The notes beneath the pieces were generated by a model. It did no database searches. It saw nothing but the letters and a program-made list of their open reading frames with translations, and had not been told where the DNA came from. The translations under genes were made by a program, and so were the position numbers. A stretch of 64,000 bases of DNA from an uncultured Cellvibrionales bacterium (GTDB lineage: Bacteria; Pseudomonadota; Gammaproteobacteria; Pseudomonadales; Dasaniaceae), in NCBI GenBank assembly GCA_913019905.1, contig CAJVZD010000005.1, positions 124,001 through 188,000 of the forward strand, written 5' to 3'. Every line of letters starts with the position of its first letter. The first letter of the stretch is position 1. Positions 23,869 to 51,291 of the stretch are shown one piece after another.

Positions 23869-24251
23869 ATGAGCTTCGATATTAATGGGAAGAAAACGGA
23901 CTTTTTACACGATTTTATGACTAAGTCAGTGGCGAAGAACTTTTGACGTTTTCGCTTGAAATGAGCGGCGACCCAAGATTTGAAGAGGCCGATTATATTA
24001 TCGGCGATTGAACACAAACCTACGAGTCTACGATCACCGTAAAGGATGTTGAGAACCTGGTAGCGTATATAACCGTAGTGCCGAAGTCCAATTCGCGCAT
24101 AAAAAGCGCAACAGGAATGTTTGATGATGAGAGTCGACAGGGCTTGTCGGGGCTTTACGGTTTGCTGGCGTCCGATATGCCGTGGGACATTGATTACTTT
24201 CATGCTTTGAGTGAGGCGAGGTCACGGGGCAACGTGAAGGAAGACCGTTAG
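23869..24251 (+). pseudogene. Decayed paralogue of the following small gene
   Basis: ATG 23869 is preceded by a good ribosome site (AAGGGA), but the frame meets a TGA and continues in another frame. The readable part LEMSGDPRFEEADYIIGD, stop, then TITVKDVENLVAY, SNSRIKSA, GLSGLYGLLASDMPWDID aligns along its length with the intact neighbour (LDASGDPRFDD, LTNPRIKNA, ALAGLYQMLTDNLPWEIK). A frameshift near 23945 and an in-frame TGA about 24017 indicate loss of function after tandem duplication. Confidence 0.85.
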
Positions 24252-24439: not shown

Positions 24440-24817
24440 ATGACAGTAGAATATTGTTGGGAGCCAAAAGGTATCTACATTCGGTTTAGCGGCAGTATTA
24501 CTGGCGTCGGAATTTTGGCGGCTGCTTTAGACGCGAGTGGAGATCCGAGATTTGATGATATCTCTTATGCTCTCGTTGACTTATTCGATGCAAGGAGCTC
24601 GACAGTCAATGCCGAAGATATGAAGCAAATGGCTGCCTATGTCAGCGCCATGTCCCTAACCAATCCTCGTATCAAAAACGCCATCGTTATGTTTCCAGAT
24701 AATGAAGAGCGTTCTGCTTTGGCCGGCTTATATCAAATGCTGACCGATAATCTTCCCTGGGAAATAAAATTGTTTGAAACACTTGATGCAGCCCGAGAAT
24801 GGACTGACGACCGCTAA
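24440..24817 (+). CDS. Small soluble protein, STAS/SpoIIAA-like (tentative)
   Basis: 125 residues, no signal peptide. The alternating beta/alpha pattern (FSGSITGVGILAAALDASG, then YALVDLFDARS, then DMKQMAAYVSAM) resembles SpoIIAA/STAS-like or Crp-helical small proteins, but I do not recognise a specific family. The decayed tandem copy upstream shows that this family was duplicated here. Neighbours give no function. Confidence 0.6.
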   Translation: MTVEYCWEPKGIYIRFSGSITGVGILAAALDASGDPRFDDISYALVDLFDARSSTVNAEDMKQMAAYVSAMSLTNPRIKNAIVMFPDNEERSALAGLYQMLTDNLPWEIKLFETLDAAREWTDDR

Positions 24818-24835: not shown

Positions 24836-24915
24836 GAGAACCTGATTGTTTGAGAATTTGATCGTTTGAGAACTTGATCGTTTGAGAAGTTAATTGGTTG
24901 AGAATCGAACGGACT
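24836..24915. repeat. 16-base imperfect tandem repeat, five copies plus partial
   Basis: Five units begin GAGAA and run 16 bases (e.g. GAGAACTTGATCGTTT), then a sixth starts at 24916. Copies two and three differ by one base. They lie between the small gene's stop and the minus-strand operon end, where they could be a transcription end or protein-binding array. No spacers, so not a CRISPR. Confidence 0.9.
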
Positions 24916-24948: not shown

Positions 24949-25089
24949 CTAGCCGTAGGCCAATGCGAGCATCTCTCTGACACCTTGGATTTGTATTGTC
25001 CAATAAACGGCAGAAAATAAGAGTATGGTGCTAGTCGCCACGATTGCTGCGGTCTGCGCGTCATCCAGTTTGTCGTTTTTCTTTTGCAT
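24949..25089 (-). CDS. 46-residue single-span membrane protein
   Basis: Short gene, ATG at 25089, stop TAG at 24949-24951. Charged N terminus QKKNDKLDD followed by one transmembrane segment (about 13-33, TAAIVATSTILLFSAVYW) and a short tail. GGGGA lies six bases before the ATG. It follows the DUF6644-like gene by 70 bases on the same strand, so is probably the last gene of that operon. It could be an assembly or stabilising subunit of the membrane complex. No family recognised. Confidence 0.65.
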   Translation of the reverse strand: MQKKNDKLDDAQTAAIVATSTILLFSAVYWTIQIQGVREMLALAYG

Positions 25090-25159
25090 TTTTTTCCCCA
25101 ATAATAATGATGCGACGGCTATCTCCGTAACCGCGCTAAATGACTGCCAGTATTTGGCA

Positions 25160-25741
25160 TTAAGCGAAGCCTATCCAGCGACCAGCCGCTGCTACGGTAA
25201 ACCAGACTAACAAGGAAGAAATCGCAACCATTTTGACGATGACTGGGTGGATATCAGTAATTTCCTTTTTAAGTAGGGGTATTTTTATAAAAAACACGAA
25301 TATCATACCCGCACACAGCACCAACATTTTGTACCAAAAGACGGGCAGATAATAAACTTTCATGGCTACCCCGCAAGCCATGAAAATGCCGGTAAATAAC
25401 ATGATAGCCAATCCCGCGACAAATACCTTATGAGACTGGTCTAGAATAACTCTTACCGGATAATCCGTTAAAATTAAACCGAGAAGGCGCCCGTCGCTCG
25501 CCAGCACTGCACCGCCTAACAAGGCCATCGCAAGCAGATGAACCGCTTCTATCACGGCAAATGCCGCCCCCCAGGTTTTACCAATCACACCAAAAAGCGT
25601 GGTTTCCATCCATTCGAAAAAGGGCAATAAAGCATCCCAGGCCTCAAGCCGTAAACTCGAAAAAGAAAATGCCAGCGTTAATGTTATGACTAACGCGGTA
25701 ATGAAAGTCCTGCGGTACGAACCCATGGCTGAGGCGGGCAT
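25160..25741 (-). CDS. DUF6644-like integral membrane protein
   Basis: 193 residues, about five transmembrane spans. Contains several membrane histidines (EAVHLLAMA, DQSHKVFVAG) spaced as in haem or metal-ligand membrane proteins. ATG has a strong AAGGAG site. The upstream gene encodes a related protein of similar length, so the two may form a heterodimer. Function unknown. Confidence 0.72.
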   Translation of the reverse strand: MPASAMGSYRRTFITALVITLTLAFSFSSLRLEAWDALLPFFEWMETTLFGVIGKTWGAAFAVIEAVHLLAMALLGGAVLASDGRLLGLILTDYPVRVILDQSHKVFVAGLAIMLFTGIFMACGVAMKVYYLPVFWYKMLVLCAGMIFVFFIKIPLLKKEITDIHPVIVKMVAISSLLVWFTVAAAGRWIGFA

Positions 25742-25800
25742 GTATGACTCCTTAATTCTTTACTGAAATGTTATTCGCAAAAACACGTAAGCATGATTCT

Positions 25801-26373
25801 TTAAAACTGGGTTTGGCCGTCTATGCAACCGGCGATAGCACTGACAAAAGGCCCTGGATTGTGGGAGCAATCGAACCAGTCATAAGCAATAAAACGTCCG
25901 CACACGGCAATGAGTATCCAGAAGATGATGGATAGTGTTGCACCTATGCGCAGGTTTCTTGGCGCTCTACCGTCGCCATCCCAGGTGGAAGAAGATGCAG
26001 TCAGCTGTTTGTGGAACAGGAAGGCGTTGATCGCAGCAGCGATCAGCAGAATGACTTTAATACGAAACCACAAGCTTTGCGAAGACCGCACAGGAATTGC
26101 GTAAAAGAGTAATAAGCCGGTAATAATCATGATACTGAATCCGAAAAGCATCGGTACATTTAAGTGACTGGCAATTTTTGCTGCCGGTATGCCGGGCATT
26201 GCGAAACCCAGTATCCTCAGGTCAATGAGAAATAACATGCCCAGGCAAATCATAAGCGTAAGTACGTGGGTGGCTTCAATCCAGTTATACATATAGAAGG
26301 ATTCGTGCAACAGGGTACTTGAAGCCATGGAGTCCAGCCACACAGCAAAACTATAAATCACTTCATTTAACAC
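25801..26373 (-). CDS. DUF6644-like integral membrane protein
   Basis: 190 residues, about five spans. The segment WIEATHVLTLMICLGMLFLIDLR is characteristic of DUF6644-type proteins, with a conserved His in EATHVL that matches EAVHLL of the neighbouring paralogue. C-terminal part is periplasmic and cysteine-containing (DCSHNPG). Likely forms a complex with the downstream paralogue. Confidence 0.78.
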   Translation of the reverse strand: MLNEVIYSFAVWLDSMASSTLLHESFYMYNWIEATHVLTLMICLGMLFLIDLRILGFAMPGIPAAKIASHLNVPMLFGFSIMIITGLLLFYAIPVRSSQSLWFRIKVILLIAAAINAFLFHKQLTASSSTWDGDGRAPRNLRIGATLSIIFWILIAVCGRFIAYDWFDCSHNPGPFVSAIAGCIDGQTQF

Positions 26374-26473
26374 AGATTCGGCTCTCCAATGGTAAGTGAT
26401 GCTTCAAAAACAATTCGTTCCTACGTACAGCGACATCTGCCGGGCAAGAAACGGTGGATTAATTTCAATTATT

Positions 26474-27034
26474 CTATTTGATATCTTTTTGTGTCTCAAA
26501 TTTGTGGCGGAACTCTCCGCCTTCGCGAAACTCAATGGCGTAAGGGAAAAAGCCGCCCGTATTCAACTGAACTGTCACCTCTTTTACTCCTCTGTTCTGC
26601 CAGAACCAGCCGTGAATTCCAGGAAAAGGGGCGCGGTATGCTGCATTGTTCTGTTTGCCACGACCTTTAGAAAATGTCTGGGCAAAAGACGGTGCTGCGC
26701 CATCCGGTTCACTGTGCATTTCGAATAAAACGTCATCATCTGCTTGCCACGAGTACACCATTGCCGCGCCTTTTTCGAGTCTGTATTTGTACTCGAGAGA
26801 TTCAAAGGGAGCGAGTTTAAATTCGAAACTATCGCTATGCCACGGTTGTTCCTGCGATTGGATGGCAGAAGTCTCTTCTCCGGAAAGTCCCATCAAGCCG
26901 AGCGCTGCGCCAGTACCCAGGGGATCTAATCCATATTCTGCCGGTAATACGGCTATAACAAGAATTGCAGTGGCGGTCAGTAATGAGGCGCCACAAGCCG
27001 CGAGTATTTTCTGAGGGCTTCGAATGTCAGTCAT
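26474..27034 (-). CDS. Single-span transmembrane anchor protein
   Basis: 186 residues. One N-terminal transmembrane segment (about 13-33, LTATAILVIAVLPAEYGLDP), then a periplasmic beta-rich domain. ATG 27034 overlaps the upstream HupE-like stop by ATGA, which fixes the start and shows co-translation. Residues SLEYKYRLEKGAAMVYSW and HGWFWQNRG are characteristic of the proteins called transmembrane anchor protein that accompany HupE/UreJ-like genes. Probable role as an anchored periplasmic subunit. Confidence 0.75.
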   Translation of the reverse strand: MTDIRSPQKILAACGASLLTATAILVIAVLPAEYGLDPLGTGAALGLMGLSGEETSAIQSQEQPWHSDSFEFKLAPFESLEYKYRLEKGAAMVYSWQADDDVLFEMHSEPDGAAPSFAQTFSKGRGKQNNAAYRAPFPGIHGWFWQNRGVKEVTVQLNTGGFFPYAIEFREGGEFRHKFETQKDIK

Positions 27035-27720
27035 GCAAGCAGATACCCCGTAATATGGAATCCAAAAAGAACAAATCCTGCGCACATAATAATGAGGTTT
27101 ACAGCGTAGGTATGGTTTGCAAAACCAGGCTGTCGTCGCCAGGCAATTAAGGCCACCAAAATCGCGCTCAATGCCAGTAATTGTCCCAGCTCAACGCCGA
27201 CGTTAAAGCTCACGAGGTTAATTAGCAGGCTTTCGTCGGAGCTAATGTAATTTTGTAACTTAGTGGCGAGACCCAGACCGTGACATAAGCCGAATGCGAA
27301 TACCGCAATTCTCGTATCCGGTTGCCAAAGTGACAGGGCTTTAAAGCCGTTTATATTTTCAAATGCCTTGTAAGCGACCGAGAGACCGATAACAGAATCC
27401 ACTAGATCGCCACTCACCTGCCAGTTTGCAAGTACGCCCAACAACAAAGTGGAGCTGTGTCCAATGGTGAATAGTGTGACATAAAGCACGATATCACGGG
27501 GCTTAAACAGGAAAAAAACAACGCCCATAAGAAACAAAAGGTGATCGTAGCCAGTAAACATATGTTTGGCGCCTAAGTACAAAAAAGGCCCCACCGCTGT
27601 TCCTGTCAGATTTTCTACAAATCGTGCATTATCTGCGGAAATGTCGTGTCCTGTTACAACCACAGTGCTATAGCTGAGAGCTATGAATATAAGTAACTTA
27701 AATAAAATTGAAAATCTCAT
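27031..27720 (-). CDS. HupE/UreJ-family membrane protein
   Basis: 229 residues, signal-like N terminus, about six spans. HupE/UreJ histidine motifs are present: GYDHLLFLMG, FTIGHSSTLLLG and FGLCHGLGLA. HupE proteins are known or suspected nickel/cobalt transporters, but the family also occurs in operons without hydrogenase or urease, as here. A periplasm-facing N-terminal extension carries GHDIS. Gap to the upstream haem lipoprotein is 13 bases. Confidence 0.82.
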   Translation of the reverse strand: MRFSILFKLLIFIALSYSTVVVTGHDISADNARFVENLTGTAVGPFLYLGAKHMFTGYDHLLFLMGVVFFLFKPRDIVLYVTLFTIGHSSTLLLGVLANWQVSGDLVDSVIGLSVAYKAFENINGFKALSLWQPDTRIAVFAFGLCHGLGLATKLQNYISSDESLLINLVSFNVGVELGQLLALSAILVALIAWRRQPGFANHTYAVNLIIMCAGFVLFGFHITGYLLA

Positions 27721-27733
27721 TTAAGCGAATAGT

Positions 27734-28189
27734 CTATTTCGGTAAGTACTGGTTATGACAGGCCTTGCATACGAGATAAATCTGACCGCCGGCTTCAAAC
27801 AGCGCTGCGCCGTCCTGATTTTGTGCGGCTTCGAGAGCCAGGGTTCCAGCTTCAGTCAAGCCCTTGGAATATTCAAGCCAATCATCTCCTCTGGCGCGTC
27901 CGGGCATCGCAAGCAGATTTCCGGTCTCTGCAACAATTGCTGCACTATTCACCACATGTTGCCACTGCTCTACTGTTGTTGGCGTTAAGTCTTGTTCTCC
28001 TTCTACCGTTATAATCGAGCCGGCGGAGTCCCATATGACATCTGTCGCTGGATCGAGAACCCATAACATTGTCTGCTTCATATCGGTAACTATATGGTAG
28101 TTATTGTCAGAAACGACGGCTTTTTCTTGTCCACAAGCTGCTAACAGTAGGATCACTAGCAGGCCTGTAATTCGCCAAAGTTTATGCAT
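27734..28189 (-). CDS. Cytochrome c'-like haem lipoprotein
   Basis: 151 residues. Lipobox LLLAAC with Cys19, then a predicted four-helix bundle, and a C-terminal haem-binding CKACH just before the end, as in cytochrome c' proteins (PF01322-like). It is thus anchored in a membrane, facing the periplasm. ATG 28189 is the start; a longer frame exists but gives no signal. First gene of the six-gene minus-strand operon. Confidence 0.8.
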   Translation of the reverse strand: MHKLWRITGLLVILLLAACGQEKAVVSDNNYHIVTDMKQTMLWVLDPATDVIWDSAGSIITVEGEQDLTPTTVEQWQHVVNSAAIVAETGNLLAMPGRARGDDWLEYSKGLTEAGTLALEAAQNQDGAALFEAGGQIYLVCKACHNQYLPK

Positions 28190-44806: not shown

Positions 44807-47740
44807 ATGGACAGAATAAATAAGCGTTTCGGGCGCTTACTGCTTGCTAGTGCAGTGTGTGTGCCGATGGGGAATTCTGCGTTTGCGCAGGATACAGGTA
44901 GGTCAATTGAAGAAGTTATTATCACCGCTGAACGGAAAGAAGCGTCGATTCAAGATACTTCGATTTCGATTACTGCATTTACAGATGATTCTCTCGATGA
45001 TTTCGGCATTCGAAATCAAGAAGATTTACAGAATTTCGTTCCAGCGATGACTATCCAGCCTTATGATGCGACCGTTCGCGGTGTTGGGCGTAATTTCCGG
45101 GCACTGGGTGGTGATCCCGGTGTTGCAACGTATATGAACAACGTTTACTCGGAAGATCTGCTGACAGCGACAGCGGCAACTTTTTGGGATGTTCAACGAA
45201 TAGAGGTATTGCGTGGTCCACAGGGTACGCTTTACGGACGCAACGCAGTCGGCGGTGCAATCAATATTCTTTATAATCAGCCCGACTATGAAAATGAGTG
45301 GGCGGTAAAAACGATTCAAGGTAATTTTGGTACACAAGAGTATTACGGAATGGTGTCCGGTGGCCTAATTGAAGATGTATTGGCTGCACGAATCAATTTC
45401 AGTACGCGAGACCGTGATGGTGTCATAGAGGAAATAGGGCCCGACGGTCAGGATTTGGATGGGCTTGGAACGGAAAATATTGCCATCCAGTTTAAGTGGA
45501 ACCCCACTGATAATGTCGAGGTTAACCTTCGTCAAAATCAGATGGCAATTGACCGTTCTTTCGGCGGAGCTAACGGCGGTGGTCTGGTGGTGTTGAATGA
45601 AGAAGGTTTTGGCGAACGTAATACCACAGATTTGGTACCGGGTTTTCGCTTTGTCGATCCGGCGCAAACTGACGGTCTTGCCAATGACTATATGACGGAG
45701 GCTCAAAGGGTTTATTCTTTTACCAATCCAGATACTGGAGAAGTGCGCCAGGCACAACATAACCGGGCTGGCATTGACTTCGCCGATTTTGACGGTTTCC
45801 AAAATGCCGCCGCTTCTCTCGATGGTTTTAATTATACCAGTCCGGAAAGTGCAGCTGCTTATAACGCCTGTGTATTCGAGGGCGATATCAAAGGCGACGA
45901 TGTCTGTGCCGCCACAAATGGTCTTCAAAGAGAGGAGTTTGACCAAAGAGGCACCCAGTTTAGTATCACGTGGGATGTGTCGGAAAATCTGGACATCAAA
46001 TATATATACGGCTTTAACAAATTATCGTATGAGCGTACTACGGATGATGATAATACGGCGAGTCAATTCCATGATCGTCAGTTTTATGTAAACCACGAAG
46101 CTGACTATTCATCGCATGAGTTGCAGGCGTTTTATGACTTTAGTGATACCTTTTCGATTACCTCCGGTATCTTCTTTTACGATGCAACAATCGATCAACG
46201 CGGCGATTTTTACTCTGCTGTCAATGAAGCGCGGATGATCAATGCTTATGAAGATAATTCCGGCATCTCTGCGGGTGTGGCAGAAGCGACAGGTATTCCT
46301 GAGGGCCTTAGTGCAAATCTGTTAGCATTTGGTGGCAGGCCAATGGCTACTTTGTTTAGTGCGAAAGAAAGTTGTCAGGGTGCAGATCCAGCGCCGTCTT
46401 GCGCCCAAAACTATTCGCTAAATACCAATGAGGATTTAGACGCTGCAGATGGAAGTCGAAACGACAATCTGTATACATCTGCCTGGTACGGTGACGATGG
46501 GACTGATAAAGGGCTTAATGTTATCCATGGTCCAGATACCTTGGGTAGCGACTTGTTGTATGCGACCCGAACTGAACGCGACGCTTTCGCTGCGTATACG
46601 CAAGCGGTGTGGGACATTAACGACATCTTTACTTTGACTTTGGGTATTCGTTACGCTCGCGATGAAGTTATTGCGGAGGAAAACTTGTTCCGTTATTCAG
46701 AGACAGGCGGCGACGGTTTTGTTGGCTTATATGGCGGTAATGTCGGTTTGAATACCGTTAACGGTGGGTTTGTGACTAATGACGATGGCTCCCTGGTTCT
46801 AAATGCCGATGGTCAACCGACTCCTACAGCAAAAGCGACCAACGGTGGACTGCCATTTGCGCTTAGTGTGTATAGACCCTATAAACGCGAAGATAAGAAA
46901 ACAACTGGACGTATCAATTTGGACTGGAATATCGACGACAGTAGCATGATGTACTTCTCGGCAACCTCCGGTTATCGCTCAGGTGGTTATAACTTGGTGT
47001 TCTTCAGTGTCACTCCAACCTACGAACCTGAAGAATTAATGGCTTATGAAATTGGCTACAAGGCGCAATTTCTGGATGACTCGCTGCAGTTAAACAGTTC
47101 AATATATTATTACGACTACGAAACTATTCATACAGTCGCAACCGAAATAACGACCCTAGGCGGTACGTCAACCTCTGTTCTCGAAGCTCCAGGCGCTGAA
47201 ATTTATGGCGCTGAAACGGAAATATTGTGGCTCGCTACCGACAATATGACCTTAGGCGGCAACTTTAGTTATACGCCGAGTGAATACACCGAGGATCTAT
47301 TTATCAAGGATACTTCGGGTTCGGGAACACCTTTATCCTTGTATCCTGACCAGGAAAGTAATGTTAAGAACATCAATGGTAATAAGGTTTTACAGGTTCC
47401 AGAAATGAAAGCCACAGCGTGGGCCAGTTACCTTATCCAACTCGATGGTGGTTCGAGCCTCGAATTGTTTGGTGTTTATACCTGGATCGACGATGTTTAT
47501 TATTCACCCTTTGAAAGTGAGTCTGAAAAGGCTCCTTCTTATGGACGAACTGATGTACGCGCAACGTGGACTTCTTCGGAAGGAAATATGTCCATCGCCG
47601 CTTTTGTCAATAACGTGTCTGATGATGTAGGTCTTTTACAAGTACTGCGGAACGGTGAAGATGAAAACTTCCGTCAGTCTGCCGGTACTACTTTGCCGCG
47701 TATGTTTGGTCTTGAGTTTAAATATTCTATGGGTCAATAA
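44807..47740 (+). CDS. TonB-dependent outer-membrane receptor (first of tandem pair)
   Basis: 977 residues. Signal peptide ends SAFAQ. Plug domain (about 35-175) holds SIEEVIITAERKEASIQD and the conserved VLRGPQGTLYGRNAVGGAIN. The remaining beta barrel ends in aromatic GLEFKYSM. Near-identical to the next receptor in the signal and plug and more variable in long internal loops. Substrate unknown; siderophore or glycan uptake are alternatives, and the downstream glycosidases favour a sugar ligand. Followed by a strong terminator. Confidence 0.93.
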   Translation: MDRINKRFGRLLLASAVCVPMGNSAFAQDTGRSIEEVIITAERKEASIQDTSISITAFTDDSLDDFGIRNQEDLQNFVPAMTIQPYDATVRGVGRNFRALGGDPGVATYMNNVYSEDLLTATAATFWDVQRIEVLRGPQGTLYGRNAVGGAINILYNQPDYENEWAVKTIQGNFGTQEYYGMVSGGLIEDVLAARINFSTRDRDGVIEEIGPDGQDLDGLGTENIAIQFKWNPTDNVEVNLRQNQMAIDRSFGGANGGGLVVLNEEGFGERNTTDLVPGFRFVDPAQTDGLANDYMTEAQRVYSFTNPDTGEVRQAQHNRAGIDFADFDGFQNAAASLDGFNYTSPESAAAYNACVFEGDIKGDDVCAATNGLQREEFDQRGTQFSITWDVSENLDIKYIYGFNKLSYERTTDDDNTASQFHDRQFYVNHEADYSSHELQAFYDFSDTFSITSGIFFYDATIDQRGDFYSAVNEARMINAYEDNSGISAGVAEATGIPEGLSANLLAFGGRPMATLFSAKESCQGADPAPSCAQNYSLNTNEDLDAADGSRNDNLYTSAWYGDDGTDKGLNVIHGPDTLGSDLLYATRTERDAFAAYTQAVWDINDIFTLTLGIRYARDEVIAEENLFRYSETGGDGFVGLYGGNVGLNTVNGGFVTNDDGSLVLNADGQPTPTAKATNGGLPFALSVYRPYKREDKKTTGRINLDWNIDDSSMMYFSATSGYRSGGYNLVFFSVTPTYEPEELMAYEIGYKAQFLDDSLQLNSSIYYYDYETIHTVATEITTLGGTSTSVLEAPGAEIYGAETEILWLATDNMTLGGNFSYTPSEYTEDLFIKDTSGSGTPLSLYPDQESNVKNINGNKVLQVPEMKATAWASYLIQLDGGSSLELFGVYTWIDDVYYSPFESESEKAPSYGRTDVRATWTSSEGNMSIAAFVNNVSDDVGLLQVLRNGEDENFRQSAGTTLPRMFGLEFKYSMGQ

Positions 47741-48330: not shown

Positions 48331-51291
48331 ATGACTAAAAACATGCGTTTTACGCGCTTATTGCTTGCGAGTGCAATTTGCGTACCCCTCGGAAACTCTG
48401 CTCTTGCGCAGGATAAAGGCAGGTCAATCGAAGAAGTCATTATCACTGCTGAACGAAAAGAGGCGTCAATTCAAGACACGTCAATTTCGATCACAGCCTT
48501 CACCGATGACTCTCTCGATGATTTCGGAATTCGAAATCAGGAAGATTTGCAGAACTTTGTTCCTGCGATGACTATCCAGCCCTACGACGCAACCGTTAGA
48601 GGTGTTGGTCGTAATTTCCGTGCACTCGGTGGTGACCCGGGTGTTGCAACCTACATGAATAATGTTTACTCGGAAGATTTGCTAACAGCGACGGCGGCAA
48701 CCTTTTGGGACGTGCAACGTATCGAAGTATTGCGGGGTCCTCAGGGTACTTTGTACGGCCGTAATGCGGTCGGCGGTGCGATAAATATTCTTTATAATCA
48801 GCCTGACTATGAAACCGAGTGGGCCGTAAAAACGATTCAAGGTAACTTTGGTACCCAAGAATATTACGGTATGGCGTCCGGTTCCTTAATTGAAGATGTA
48901 TTGGCAGCACGTATCAATTTCGCCACGCGCGACCGCGATGGCGTTATTGAAGAGATCGGGGCTGGTGGTAAGGATCTTGATGGTCTCGGCACAGAAAATA
49001 TTGCTATTCAGTTTAAGTGGAACGCCACTGACAATATTGAAGTTAATCTGCGTCAAAACCAAATGGCAATCGACCGTTCCTTCGGCGGTGCTAACGGCGG
49101 CGGACTGGTTGTTCTGAACGAAGAAAATGAATCATTTCGTAATACTGAATCGCTAGTACCCGGCTTTCGATTTGTTGATCCTGCGCAAACCAATGGTTTG
49201 GCGAATGACTACCTAGTTGCAAATTCACAAGTCTATTCATTTACCGATCCAGCAACCGGTGAAGTTCGACAGGCCCAACATAATCGTCCGGGCGTTGACT
49301 ATGCTGATTTTAACGGCACGCAAAATGCGGCGGCTTCTTTGGATGGGTTTAACTACACCAGCCCAGAAAGCGCAGCGGCCTATAACGAATGTGTATTCAG
49401 CGGTGATATTACCGGTGATGATGTTTGTGCCGCGACGAACGGTTTAAACCGTGAGGAATTTGATCAACGCGGAACACAGTTTAGTGTTACCTGGAGCGCA
49501 ACTGAAGATTTAGAGCTCAAATATATCTACGGTTTCAATAAGCTATCTTATCGCCGTACTACGGATGATGATAATACCGCGAGTCAGTTCCACGACCGCC
49601 AATTCTATGTCAATCATGAAGCCGATTACTCGTCTCACGAACTTCAGGCGTTTTATGATTTTAGCGATAGCTTTTCGATTACCTCGGGCATTTTCTTTTA
49701 CGACGCGACCATTGACCAACGCGGCGATTTTTATTCGGCAGTCAATGAAGCTCGTATGATTGACGCTTATGAAGATAATACGGCTCTTTCTGCCGGAGTT
49801 TCTGCTGCAACGGGGATCCCTGAAGGCTTACCTGCCTCGGCATTGCTAGGTGGTAATCCTATGGCTACTTTGTTTAGTGCGAAACAGAGTTGTCAGGTAG
49901 AAAATCCCGCGGCTTCATGTGCTGTTAACTTTTCGGTCAATAACAAAAATACCGACTTGGAGTTTAATACTGAGGGGCTTCCAACCCGAAACGACAACCT
50001 TTATGTTTCGGCCTGGGGCGGAGATGACGGTCAGACTGAAGGGCTAGATGTTATTCATGGTCCTAATACTCTAGGAAGTGATTTATTGTATGCAACACAA
50101 ACCAAGCGCGATGCTTTTGCGGCGTATACTCAGGCAGTTTGGGATATCAATGAAGTCTTTACCTTAACCGTCGGTATTCGATACGCTAAAGATGAAGTGC
50201 AGGCGGAGGAAAACTTATTCCGTTACAATGAGACTGGTGGAGACGCTAACAATCCGTTTAGGCAGAATTTCACTGCTTTATATGGTGGATTGGTTGCGAT
50301 TAACCAGGTTAACGGTGGACTTGTTACAAATGCTGACGGTTCCTTACTGCTCGATTCTGACGGACAACCAACCGCGACTCCCAAGGCGACCAACGGTGGT
50401 ATTCCTTACGGTTTAAGTGTTTATCGTCCCTACGAGCGCGAAGATACAGAAACCACGGGTCGAATTAATTTGGACTGGAACATCGACGATAGCAGCATGA
50501 TGTATTTCTCTGGTACGTCTGGTTACCGTTCAGGTGGTTATAATTTGGTATTCTTCAGTGAGTCGCCTACCTATGAGCCAGAAGAACTGATGGCCTACGA
50601 AATTGGTTACAAAGCTCAGTTTCTGGATGACTCCTTGCAGTTAAATAGTTCTGTTTATTATTACGACTATGAAACTATCCATACGGTCGCGACGGAAGTT
50701 TCAGCGATTGGCGGTACTACAACGTCTGTTCTCGAGGCGCCAGGTGCTGAGATATATGGCCTTGAAACTGAGATATTGTGGCTAGCGACGGACAACTGGA
50801 CTTTAGGCGGTAACTTCAGTTTCACTCCAAGTGAATACACTGAAGACCTGTTAGTTAAGGATACGTCAGATATCAGTACGCCAACATCGCTGTTTCCAGA
50901 AGCGAATAATAACTTCGTCAACATAAACGGCAATCAGGTACTACAAGTGCCAGAAGGCAAAGGCACGCTTTGGGGAAGTTACCTCATGCAGTTAGACGGT
51001 GGTTCTACGCTAGAGTTGTTTGCTGTTTATAGTTGGATCGACGACGTCTATTATTCAGCCTTTGAAAGTGAGGCCGAAAAGGCGCCCGCTTATGGACGAA
51101 CTGATTTACGTGCAACGTGGACATCTTCAGAAGGTAATATGTCTATCGCGGCTTATGTGAATAATGTGTCTGATGATGTGGGTATTCTACAGATCGTACG
51201 TAATACTGAGGAAGAATATTTCCGTCAAGCGGCAGGTACGACTTTGCCACGTATGTTTGGTCTCGAGTTTAAATACTCTATGGGTCAGTAA
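48331..51291 (+). CDS. TonB-dependent outer-membrane receptor (second of tandem pair)
   Basis: 986 residues. Same signal/plug layout as its neighbour, with SIEEVIITAERKEASIQD and VLRGPQGTLYGRNAVGG, ending GLEFKYSMGQ. The first 180 mature residues are almost identical to the neighbour, and differences are concentrated in barrel loops (e.g. around residue 270 and 520-560). Recent tandem duplication with loop divergence suggests two related ligands. It has its own terminator. Confidence 0.93.
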   Translation: MTKNMRFTRLLLASAICVPLGNSALAQDKGRSIEEVIITAERKEASIQDTSISITAFTDDSLDDFGIRNQEDLQNFVPAMTIQPYDATVRGVGRNFRALGGDPGVATYMNNVYSEDLLTATAATFWDVQRIEVLRGPQGTLYGRNAVGGAINILYNQPDYETEWAVKTIQGNFGTQEYYGMASGSLIEDVLAARINFATRDRDGVIEEIGAGGKDLDGLGTENIAIQFKWNATDNIEVNLRQNQMAIDRSFGGANGGGLVVLNEENESFRNTESLVPGFRFVDPAQTNGLANDYLVANSQVYSFTDPATGEVRQAQHNRPGVDYADFNGTQNAAASLDGFNYTSPESAAAYNECVFSGDITGDDVCAATNGLNREEFDQRGTQFSVTWSATEDLELKYIYGFNKLSYRRTTDDDNTASQFHDRQFYVNHEADYSSHELQAFYDFSDSFSITSGIFFYDATIDQRGDFYSAVNEARMIDAYEDNTALSAGVSAATGIPEGLPASALLGGNPMATLFSAKQSCQVENPAASCAVNFSVNNKNTDLEFNTEGLPTRNDNLYVSAWGGDDGQTEGLDVIHGPNTLGSDLLYATQTKRDAFAAYTQAVWDINEVFTLTVGIRYAKDEVQAEENLFRYNETGGDANNPFRQNFTALYGGLVAINQVNGGLVTNADGSLLLDSDGQPTATPKATNGGIPYGLSVYRPYEREDTETTGRINLDWNIDDSSMMYFSGTSGYRSGGYNLVFFSESPTYEPEELMAYEIGYKAQFLDDSLQLNSSVYYYDYETIHTVATEVSAIGGTTTSVLEAPGAEIYGLETEILWLATDNWTLGGNFSFTPSEYTEDLLVKDTSDISTPTSLFPEANNNFVNINGNQVLQVPEGKGTLWGSYLMQLDGGSTLELFAVYSWIDDVYYSAFESEAEKAPAYGRTDLRATWTSSEGNMSIAAYVNNVSDDVGILQIVRNTEEEYFRQAAGTTLPRMFGLEFKYSMGQ

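Follow-up and report, generated by a model that had tools for sequence, protein, structure and literature searches.

It has been reported that HupE/UreJ-2 permeases (PF13795) of the Anglerase type carry fused domains with an N-terminal histidine, and that these domains bind Cu2+ with Kd values of about 74 and 62 nM (PMC12537917). Two other families that recur below, DUF6644 and DUF6152, were named in no paper found, and nothing relevant was found on the anchor protein, c556, GOLD with HupE, YebZ/YobA or HemJ, in a literature search that did not extend to most subscription journals or to any bioRxiv preprint. We analyzed a 64,000-nucleotide stretch of DNA from an uncultured Cellvibrionales bacterium (contig CAJVZD010000005.1, positions 124,001 to 188,000; hereafter the window). 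Six consecutive genes on its minus strand (positions 28189-24949), lettered A to F in their order, encode a cytochrome c'-like lipoprotein (A), a PF13795 permease (B), a protein with a predicted membrane-anchored beta-sandwich (C), two DUF6644 proteins (D and E) and a 46-residue protein (F). We found that these genes are two modules, A-B-C and D-E-F, which probably belong to one co-inherited set of nine genes in three modules. The third module, two DPDLQGIW proteins and a DUF6152 protein, is encoded outside the window, and the nine-gene set is apparently undescribed.

The distribution of the genes was examined in 390 genomes of the order, with expectation-value thresholds of 1e-20 for close forms of E, 1e-8 for A, 1e-30 for C and 1e-3 for D. 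Close E was present in 23 genomes and A in 26, and all 23 E-positive genomes were also A-positive. With ancestry ignored, such an overlap had a hypergeometric probability of 3e-34 when genomes were counted and of 6e-10 when genera were counted, all 7 E-positive genera falling within the 10 A-positive of 142. The three A-positive genomes without close E were G222, which has a decayed E; G382, in which D and E are present under the threshold (locus L084); and G304, in which the DUF6644 pair (at L087) is more distant and has a weaker A-like gene in its vicinity. D matched in 26 of 26 A-positive genomes, as fragments in G222, and C was found in 20 of the 390, namely 19 of the 23 and G382, with the next best match at 2e-27. 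An earlier sequence-only reading of this locus had proposed a redox- or metal-linked membrane complex and a gene-neighbourhood survey as its check; homologues were found to co-occur across genomes, in agreement with that proposal.

Besides, in many genomes two DPDLQGIW proteins (~300 and 330 aa) and a DUF6152 protein (PF19649, 1.4e-30) were encoded beside A-B-C or D-E. Both DUF6152 and DPDLQGIW were present in 26 of 26 A-positive genomes, with weaker or broken matches in G304 and G222, versus 0 of 22 A-negative genomes tested, which were hand-picked from the genus, family and order and some of which had distant C. The six genes had been taken as the whole set; these counts show that the three genes outside the window belong to it too. 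The two DPDLQGIW proteins tested matched no Pfam family, and a PDB search with DPDLQGIW returned chance-level rows only. In DUF6152, a His-His pair after a signal-like leader and an NPH motif were invariant in 13 of 13 proteins.

Physical linkage was less constant than co-occurrence. A and E were near each other in 5 of the 23 genomes (G000, which is the window's genome, G278, G314, G260 and G332), on different contigs in 17 and, in G226, on one contig at a large distance from each other. A public genome collection provided 30 E-bearing loci (L014-L043), several of them cut by contig ends. D adjoined E in all 30, although in L030 D is spread over two frames, and A-B-C adjoined D-E-F in three (L018, L037 and L043); A alone adjoined D-E-F in L022, and a distant B-like gene was nearby in L042. 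The window, L018, L082, L083 and L084 have the five genes A to E next to one another. The six-gene arrangement originally described thus holds for the window, as a putative operon, and is rejected as a tight conserved unit. In the marine gamma proteobacterium HTCC2143 (L018), A-B-C-D-E-F stand in the window's order. All nine genes lie in one stretch in Candidatus Litorirhabdus singularis IMCC14734 (L037) and in a metagenome-assembled genome (MAG) of Haliea sp. (L043), in the order two DPDLQGIW genes, DUF6152, D, E, F and then, on the other strand, C, B, A. Similarly, eight of the nine adjoin on one strand in L084, and in G353 (L097) a DPDLQGIW gene and a DUF6152 gene are neighbours of a DUF6644 pair of the more distant kind. 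Other neighbours of D-E-F in the 30 loci were an AraC-type regulator (judged by reading the sequence) in 21 and a NIPSNAP gene in 19. A single protein combining redoxin, cytochrome c-like and copper type II monooxygenase domains (one member tested) was encoded within a few kb of the system in L037, L042, L081, L085 and L107.

Partial sets were informative about the composition of the system. Four genomes of g79 (G112, G162, G260 and G332) have A, D and E together with only two DPDLQGIW copies each, no C match and no close B (no match in three, a distant one in G112). Since they keep A and D-E without C or close B, the core would seem to be A plus D-E, with B-C as an accessory. In G222 (L086, G222:C67:7740-11159) the set looks to have decayed together, to which poor assembly may contribute: B contains stops, DUF6152 is shortened with a stop, D and E are fragmented, A has CKTRH for CxxCH and so lacks the second haem cysteine, the end of F is changed, and no C was found there.

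Ten members of its family were surveyed, and the window's genome alone had A or close E; either joint horizontal acquisition or a binning problem would fit this. With 5.1 percent contamination, the bin measures 6.4 Mb, and same-genus genomes are 2.3-4.8 Mb. Its DPDLQGIW-DUF6152 trio is located on another contig (L101, G000:C8:77544-79974). The window and L101 agree in tetranucleotide use (r 0.935, with 0.925 between the two halves of the window), so they probably derive from one organism. A GAPDH of the window matched other families more closely (up to 73 percent) than it matched the named genus (50 percent at best), and the genus label is therefore uncertain here.

For A, the CxxCH residues C141, C144 and H145 and the methionine M41 were invariant in 19 of 19 proteins. 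A scored 21.2 bits against PF01322, whose cut-off is 26.5, and three homologues likewise scored below it; a profile of A retrieved cytochrome c' chains from the PDB (best 6.2e-4). The presence of haem in A, as predicted from its motif and these matches, is well supported. Met41 stands 100 residues ahead of the first haem cysteine, Cys141, and the identical spacing separates residue 16 of cytochrome c' 5agf, which we take to be the distal haem residue, from Cys116 (counted from the PDB match). Methionine ligates the haem in c556. With Met41 at the spacing of the distal residue, A is probably a low-spin one-haem carrier.

Both D and E passed the cut-off of 27 bits for DUF6644 (PF20349), with 30.8 and 175 bits, respectively, and their kinship was evident from hhalign (probability 97.9, E-value 5.7e-13). 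A common EA-x-H-L motif had been noticed in the two proteins beforehand; it was recovered here, with its His invariant in 23 of 23 aligned E and 22 of 22 aligned D. In a wide alignment of 31 rows, this helix-1 His (H36 in D, H68 in E) and a helix-3 Lys were found in all 30 DUF6644 proteins (L007 being partial); the one other row, L098:8558-9046, comes from outside this family. The model of E (pLDDT 85.1) shows long helices, with four in the part that begins at residue 58. That two single-His chains are encoded side by side suggests a site shared between the chains, and D-E may hold haem or metal through their invariant residues. We also considered membership of D and E in known families. CopD (PF05425) was rejected (D, 11.8 of 32.1 bits; E, no match up to an E-value of 1), as was HemJ/UPF0093 (PF03653; D, 16.1 of 34.2 bits). 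HemJ aligned to the wide DUF6644 profile with His and Lys in register (P 3.3e-4), but the match itself was weak (probability 38 percent), and narrower profiles gave 4.3 percent for D and 0.2 percent for E. These values give a weak hint of a distant relation between HemJ and DUF6644. A search of 72,556 plasmids with E returned no match.

F was located behind E in 28 of the 30 collection loci; in the other two the contig stops inside E (L039) or ~25 bases past its stop (L016). The F alignment comprised 27 proteins and excluded the copy of L038 cut at a contig end, a second F-like gene of L021, the decayed L086 copy and the F of L023, which was detected only later, by profile. Twenty-five of the 27 have the C-terminal AYG, L014 ends in ARG, and L034 has one extra residue. 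The ratio of nonsynonymous to synonymous substitution (dN/dS) was computable for 22 of 32 close pairs, with dS saturated in the other 10; it was 0.03-0.20 in 21 pairs and 0.42 in one. F is thus under purifying selection and, given also its regular position after E, is a real, conserved protein-coding gene, as had been suspected of a small and perhaps unannotated open reading frame (ORF). Weaker F matches were found behind E in L003 (G053), L082 (G278) and L109 (G048), and an altered one in L086.

B is a clear PF13795 member (176.6 bits, cut-off 24.5), so the HupE/UreJ-type assignment first made for it was correct. His25, which follows a signal-like leader, and the membrane residues His53, 60, 88 and 147 were invariant in 19 of 19 proteins. 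Only ~20 residues separate His25 from the PF13795 match, which begins at residue 46, and there is no fused periplasmic metal-binding domain. The model of C had a pLDDT of 69.9 overall and mostly 75-91 across its beta domain. It resembled GOLD domains (Foldseek 1.7e-5; VIA Z 13.0 and 1.8 Angstrom over 93 residues for TMED1 GOLD, at 14 percent identity), and a PDB sequence search with C gave chance-level rows only. C is therefore predicted to be a membrane-anchored GOLD-like beta sandwich, the likeness being at the level of fold only; an anchored beta protein was what had been expected. C is perhaps a separate counterpart of the N-terminal-His domain that is fused to PF13795 permeases elsewhere. 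Proteins like C, named “transmembrane anchor protein” on annotated plasmids, matched in 382 plasmid records. B and C adjoined in 4 of 4 plasmid regions inspected, with no cytochrome or DUF6644 annotated in those four; CusA/CzcA was a neighbour in one region, and CopC/CopD with a DUF4198 gene in another.

Overall, what stands of the initial view is a haem- and metal-linked membrane set with a DUF6644 pair and a real small gene; what changed is the division into two modules, the three members outside the window and the seemingly accessory nature of B-C. The best mechanism for these observations is a periplasm-facing redox and metal-capture module at the inner membrane, to which we give a probability of roughly 0.38. 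On this view one envelope system would comprise three co-inherited modules, and the six genes would make up two of them. D and E would form a pair within the inner membrane, with the helix-1 His of each chain binding a b-type haem (a metal ion being less likely), and F would be a small subunit that stabilises them. This D-E-F core would connect lipoprotein A with the quinone pool by electron transfer; A, the one-haem carrier, has its invariant Met at the presumed place of the distal haem residue in cytochrome c'. The periplasmic partners would be DUF6152, with His-His at its predicted mature N-terminus, and the two DPDLQGIW proteins. B-C would form a metal-capture and permease unit, B acting via its N-terminal His and C as its anchored beta-sandwich partner, and the whole system would link the capture of a metal, most likely copper, with the reduction and delivery of that metal. 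From the position and conservation of their likely N-terminal histidines we infer that B and DUF6152 use these residues for capture. A fuller version, in which all nine components form one envelope system, the DUF6644 heterodimer shares a single b-type haem with one His per chain, F stabilises it, metal is captured and reduced together with the low-spin cytochrome lipoprotein, the N-terminal-His permease and its GOLD-like partner, the N-terminal-His DUF6152 and the two DPDLQGIW proteins, and other DUF6644 pairs are variants of the same core, we regard as doubtful.

Several observations weigh against the redox and metal-capture mechanism. The PDB sequence search with D and E had no match up to an E-value of 5, and Foldseek had none for the E model at E <= 0.001; the best VIA rows of this model (bd oxidase 10.0, oxidase subunit III 9.4, hydrogenase cytochrome b 7.8) are, up to their Z of 10, within the range of unrelated helical bundles. 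Links of D and E to HemJ and CopD are weak at the sequence level, and a single CopD sequence compared with both gave no match. No F was found at seven more distant D-E loci (L081, L083, L084, L085, L087, L107 and L108). Among 57 relatives searched, seven had any DUF6644 match, and four of these (G004, G028, G033 and G049) had no A at 1e-8; these four were not among the 22 controls. G004 belongs to the genus of the window's genome and is 64 percent complete. Its 5.3-kb contig (L006, G004:C155), which stops at a DUF6644 gene, carries a C-like match and a B homologue (48 percent identity) along with a distant DUF6644 pair. This again ties DUF6644 to B-C but not to A, of which none was found in this genome. 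Hence the co-occurrence of A and E holds for the close form, and distant DUF6644 proteins do occur without A. The signal-peptide cuts of B and DUF6152 were placed by eye. Other plasmid B-C pairs have chromate genes adjacent or a nickel ABC transporter gene ~5 kb off, so the identity of the metal is uncertain. Finally, DPDLQGIW copies are multiplied in G386 and other f45 genomes, with up to 36 matches in one genome, which could point to a catabolic role.

This last observation leads to an alternative, a catabolic redox chain in which the DPDLQGIW proteins act in the periplasm on different organic substrates, by binding or oxidising them, and pass electrons to A and D-E-F, while B-C only supplies cofactor metal. 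Genes read as acyl-CoA dehydrogenase, short-chain dehydrogenase and CoA-ligase-like near several DPDLQGIW copies, and the protein with redoxin, cytochrome c and copper monooxygenase-like parts near the system in several loci, are consistent with it; but the DPDLQGIW proteins resemble no Pfam enzyme family (two tested) and no PDB chain beyond chance, and g79 genomes make do with two copies alongside A, D and E. We consider such a chain unlikely. Somewhat less probable is a CopC/CopD-like metal importer without electron transfer, in which DUF6152 hands metal to a path of His residues in D-E and A is a separate electron carrier. It would account for the invariant His-His and NPH of DUF6152, the weak CopD and UPF0093 matches of D and the HemJ-like register, but not for the presence of A in every close-E genome, and it has to contend with the failure of D and E to reach the CopD cut-off or to match a CopD sequence. 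Least probable is that there is no single system, only three lineage-restricted modules of separate function shared via common ancestry and linked transfer: A-positive genomes are confined to four families and E-positive ones to three, the modules are physically apart in most genomes, B-C pairs occur alone on plasmids and distant DUF6644 proteins occur without A, yet the window's genome, alone among the 10 surveyed members of its family in having A or close E, holds every module, nine- and eight-gene loci are contiguous, the set decayed jointly in G222, and A, D and E are retained without B-C in g79.

A redox and metal-capture module would provide the uncharacterised Pfam families DUF6644 and DUF6152 with a shared context and testable partners, and likewise the DPDLQGIW proteins (which have no Pfam match), the new family of small proteins and the “transmembrane anchor protein”, which is widespread. 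It predicts that D-E-F contains haem, that B and DUF6152 bind metal at their N-terminal His, and that electrons are transferred to A, all of which can be tested. Since L037 and L018 come from named organisms and not from MAGs, genetics may be possible.

Features of the window are listed in the table below. All six ORFs were found where the sequence-only reading had placed them. The start of C was set by its ATG, which sits within an ATGA overlap with the stop of B. The spacing from A to F is 13 bases, the overlap, 100, 59 and 70 bases, as previously given except for the fourth gap (D-E), for which 60 had been counted. Scans for promoter-like sites (11 versus 7.0 expected, sd 2.8) and terminator-like sites (2 versus 4.7 expected) found little beyond chance. 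NCBIfam had no match above its cut-offs for any of A-F, and C and F matched no Pfam family. Just downstream of F, 3-4 head-to-tail copies of a ~16-base unit (TTCTCAAACGATCAA-like) were spotted by eye. Further along, the 57-aa ORF, which lies ahead of the 125-aa ORF, resembles by eye the C-terminal part of the latter and is possibly a truncated copy. Elsewhere in the window, the adjacent 977-aa and 986-aa ORFs, judged TonB-receptor-like by reading the sequence, have nearly identical starts and probably represent a duplication.

Features of the 64,000-nt window: six-gene locus (A to F) and other elements
Feature	Position	Strand	Length	Remarks
A, cytochrome c'-like lipoprotein	27734..28189	-	151 aa	lipobox LLAAC; CKACH near C-terminus; PF01322 0.00061, below cut-off
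B, HupE/UreJ-2 permease	27031..27720	-	229 aa	PF13795 3.7e-52; invariant His25 after signal-like leader
C, one membrane helix and predicted GOLD-like beta-sandwich domain	26474..27034	-	186 aa	from predicted model, Foldseek and VIA
D, DUF6644 protein	25801..26373	-	190 aa	GTG start; Pfam 4e-7; invariant His36, near-invariant His121
E, DUF6644 protein	25160..25741	-	193 aa	Pfam 1.6e-51; invariant His68 and Lys138
F, small protein with one hydrophobic stretch	24949..25089	-	46 aa	conserved end ...LAYG; from 28/30 loci and dN/dS
Head-to-tail repeats	~24836-24890			
ORF	24440-24817	+	125 aa	weak SpoIIAA-like Pfam match, E-value 0.058
ORF	24078-24251	+	57 aa	
ORF	44807-47740	+	977 aa	
ORF	48331-51291	+	986 aa	

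Compared with described systems, the locus resembles several and matches none of them in full. Like the Anglerase permeases, B has an invariant His at its likely mature N-terminus; these permeases carry a fused beta-sandwich domain, whereas B has ~20 residues instead, with a separate anchored C next door and a cytochrome upstream. The plasmid pairs of HupE/UreJ and anchor protein share the B-C adjacency but not the annotated cytochrome or DUF6644 genes, and E was found on none of the plasmids searched. A shares with cytochrome c'/c556 (PF01322) the C-terminal CxxCH, the PDB profile matches and the Met41-Cys141 spacing, and differs in being a lipoprotein, in having Met at the supposed distal position and in scoring below the Pfam cut-off. 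The weak profile match to HemJ aligns the helix-1 His and helix-3 Lys of DUF6644; however, HemJ is a single gene, present in 22 of 22 relatives tested, while close E is restricted to 23 of 390 genomes. As for CopC/CopD, DUF6152 may bear an N-terminal His like CopC and is encoded beside His-bearing membrane proteins; but DUF6152 and DUF6644 are other Pfam families, and the membrane part here consists of two genes, accompanied by a cytochrome and a small protein.

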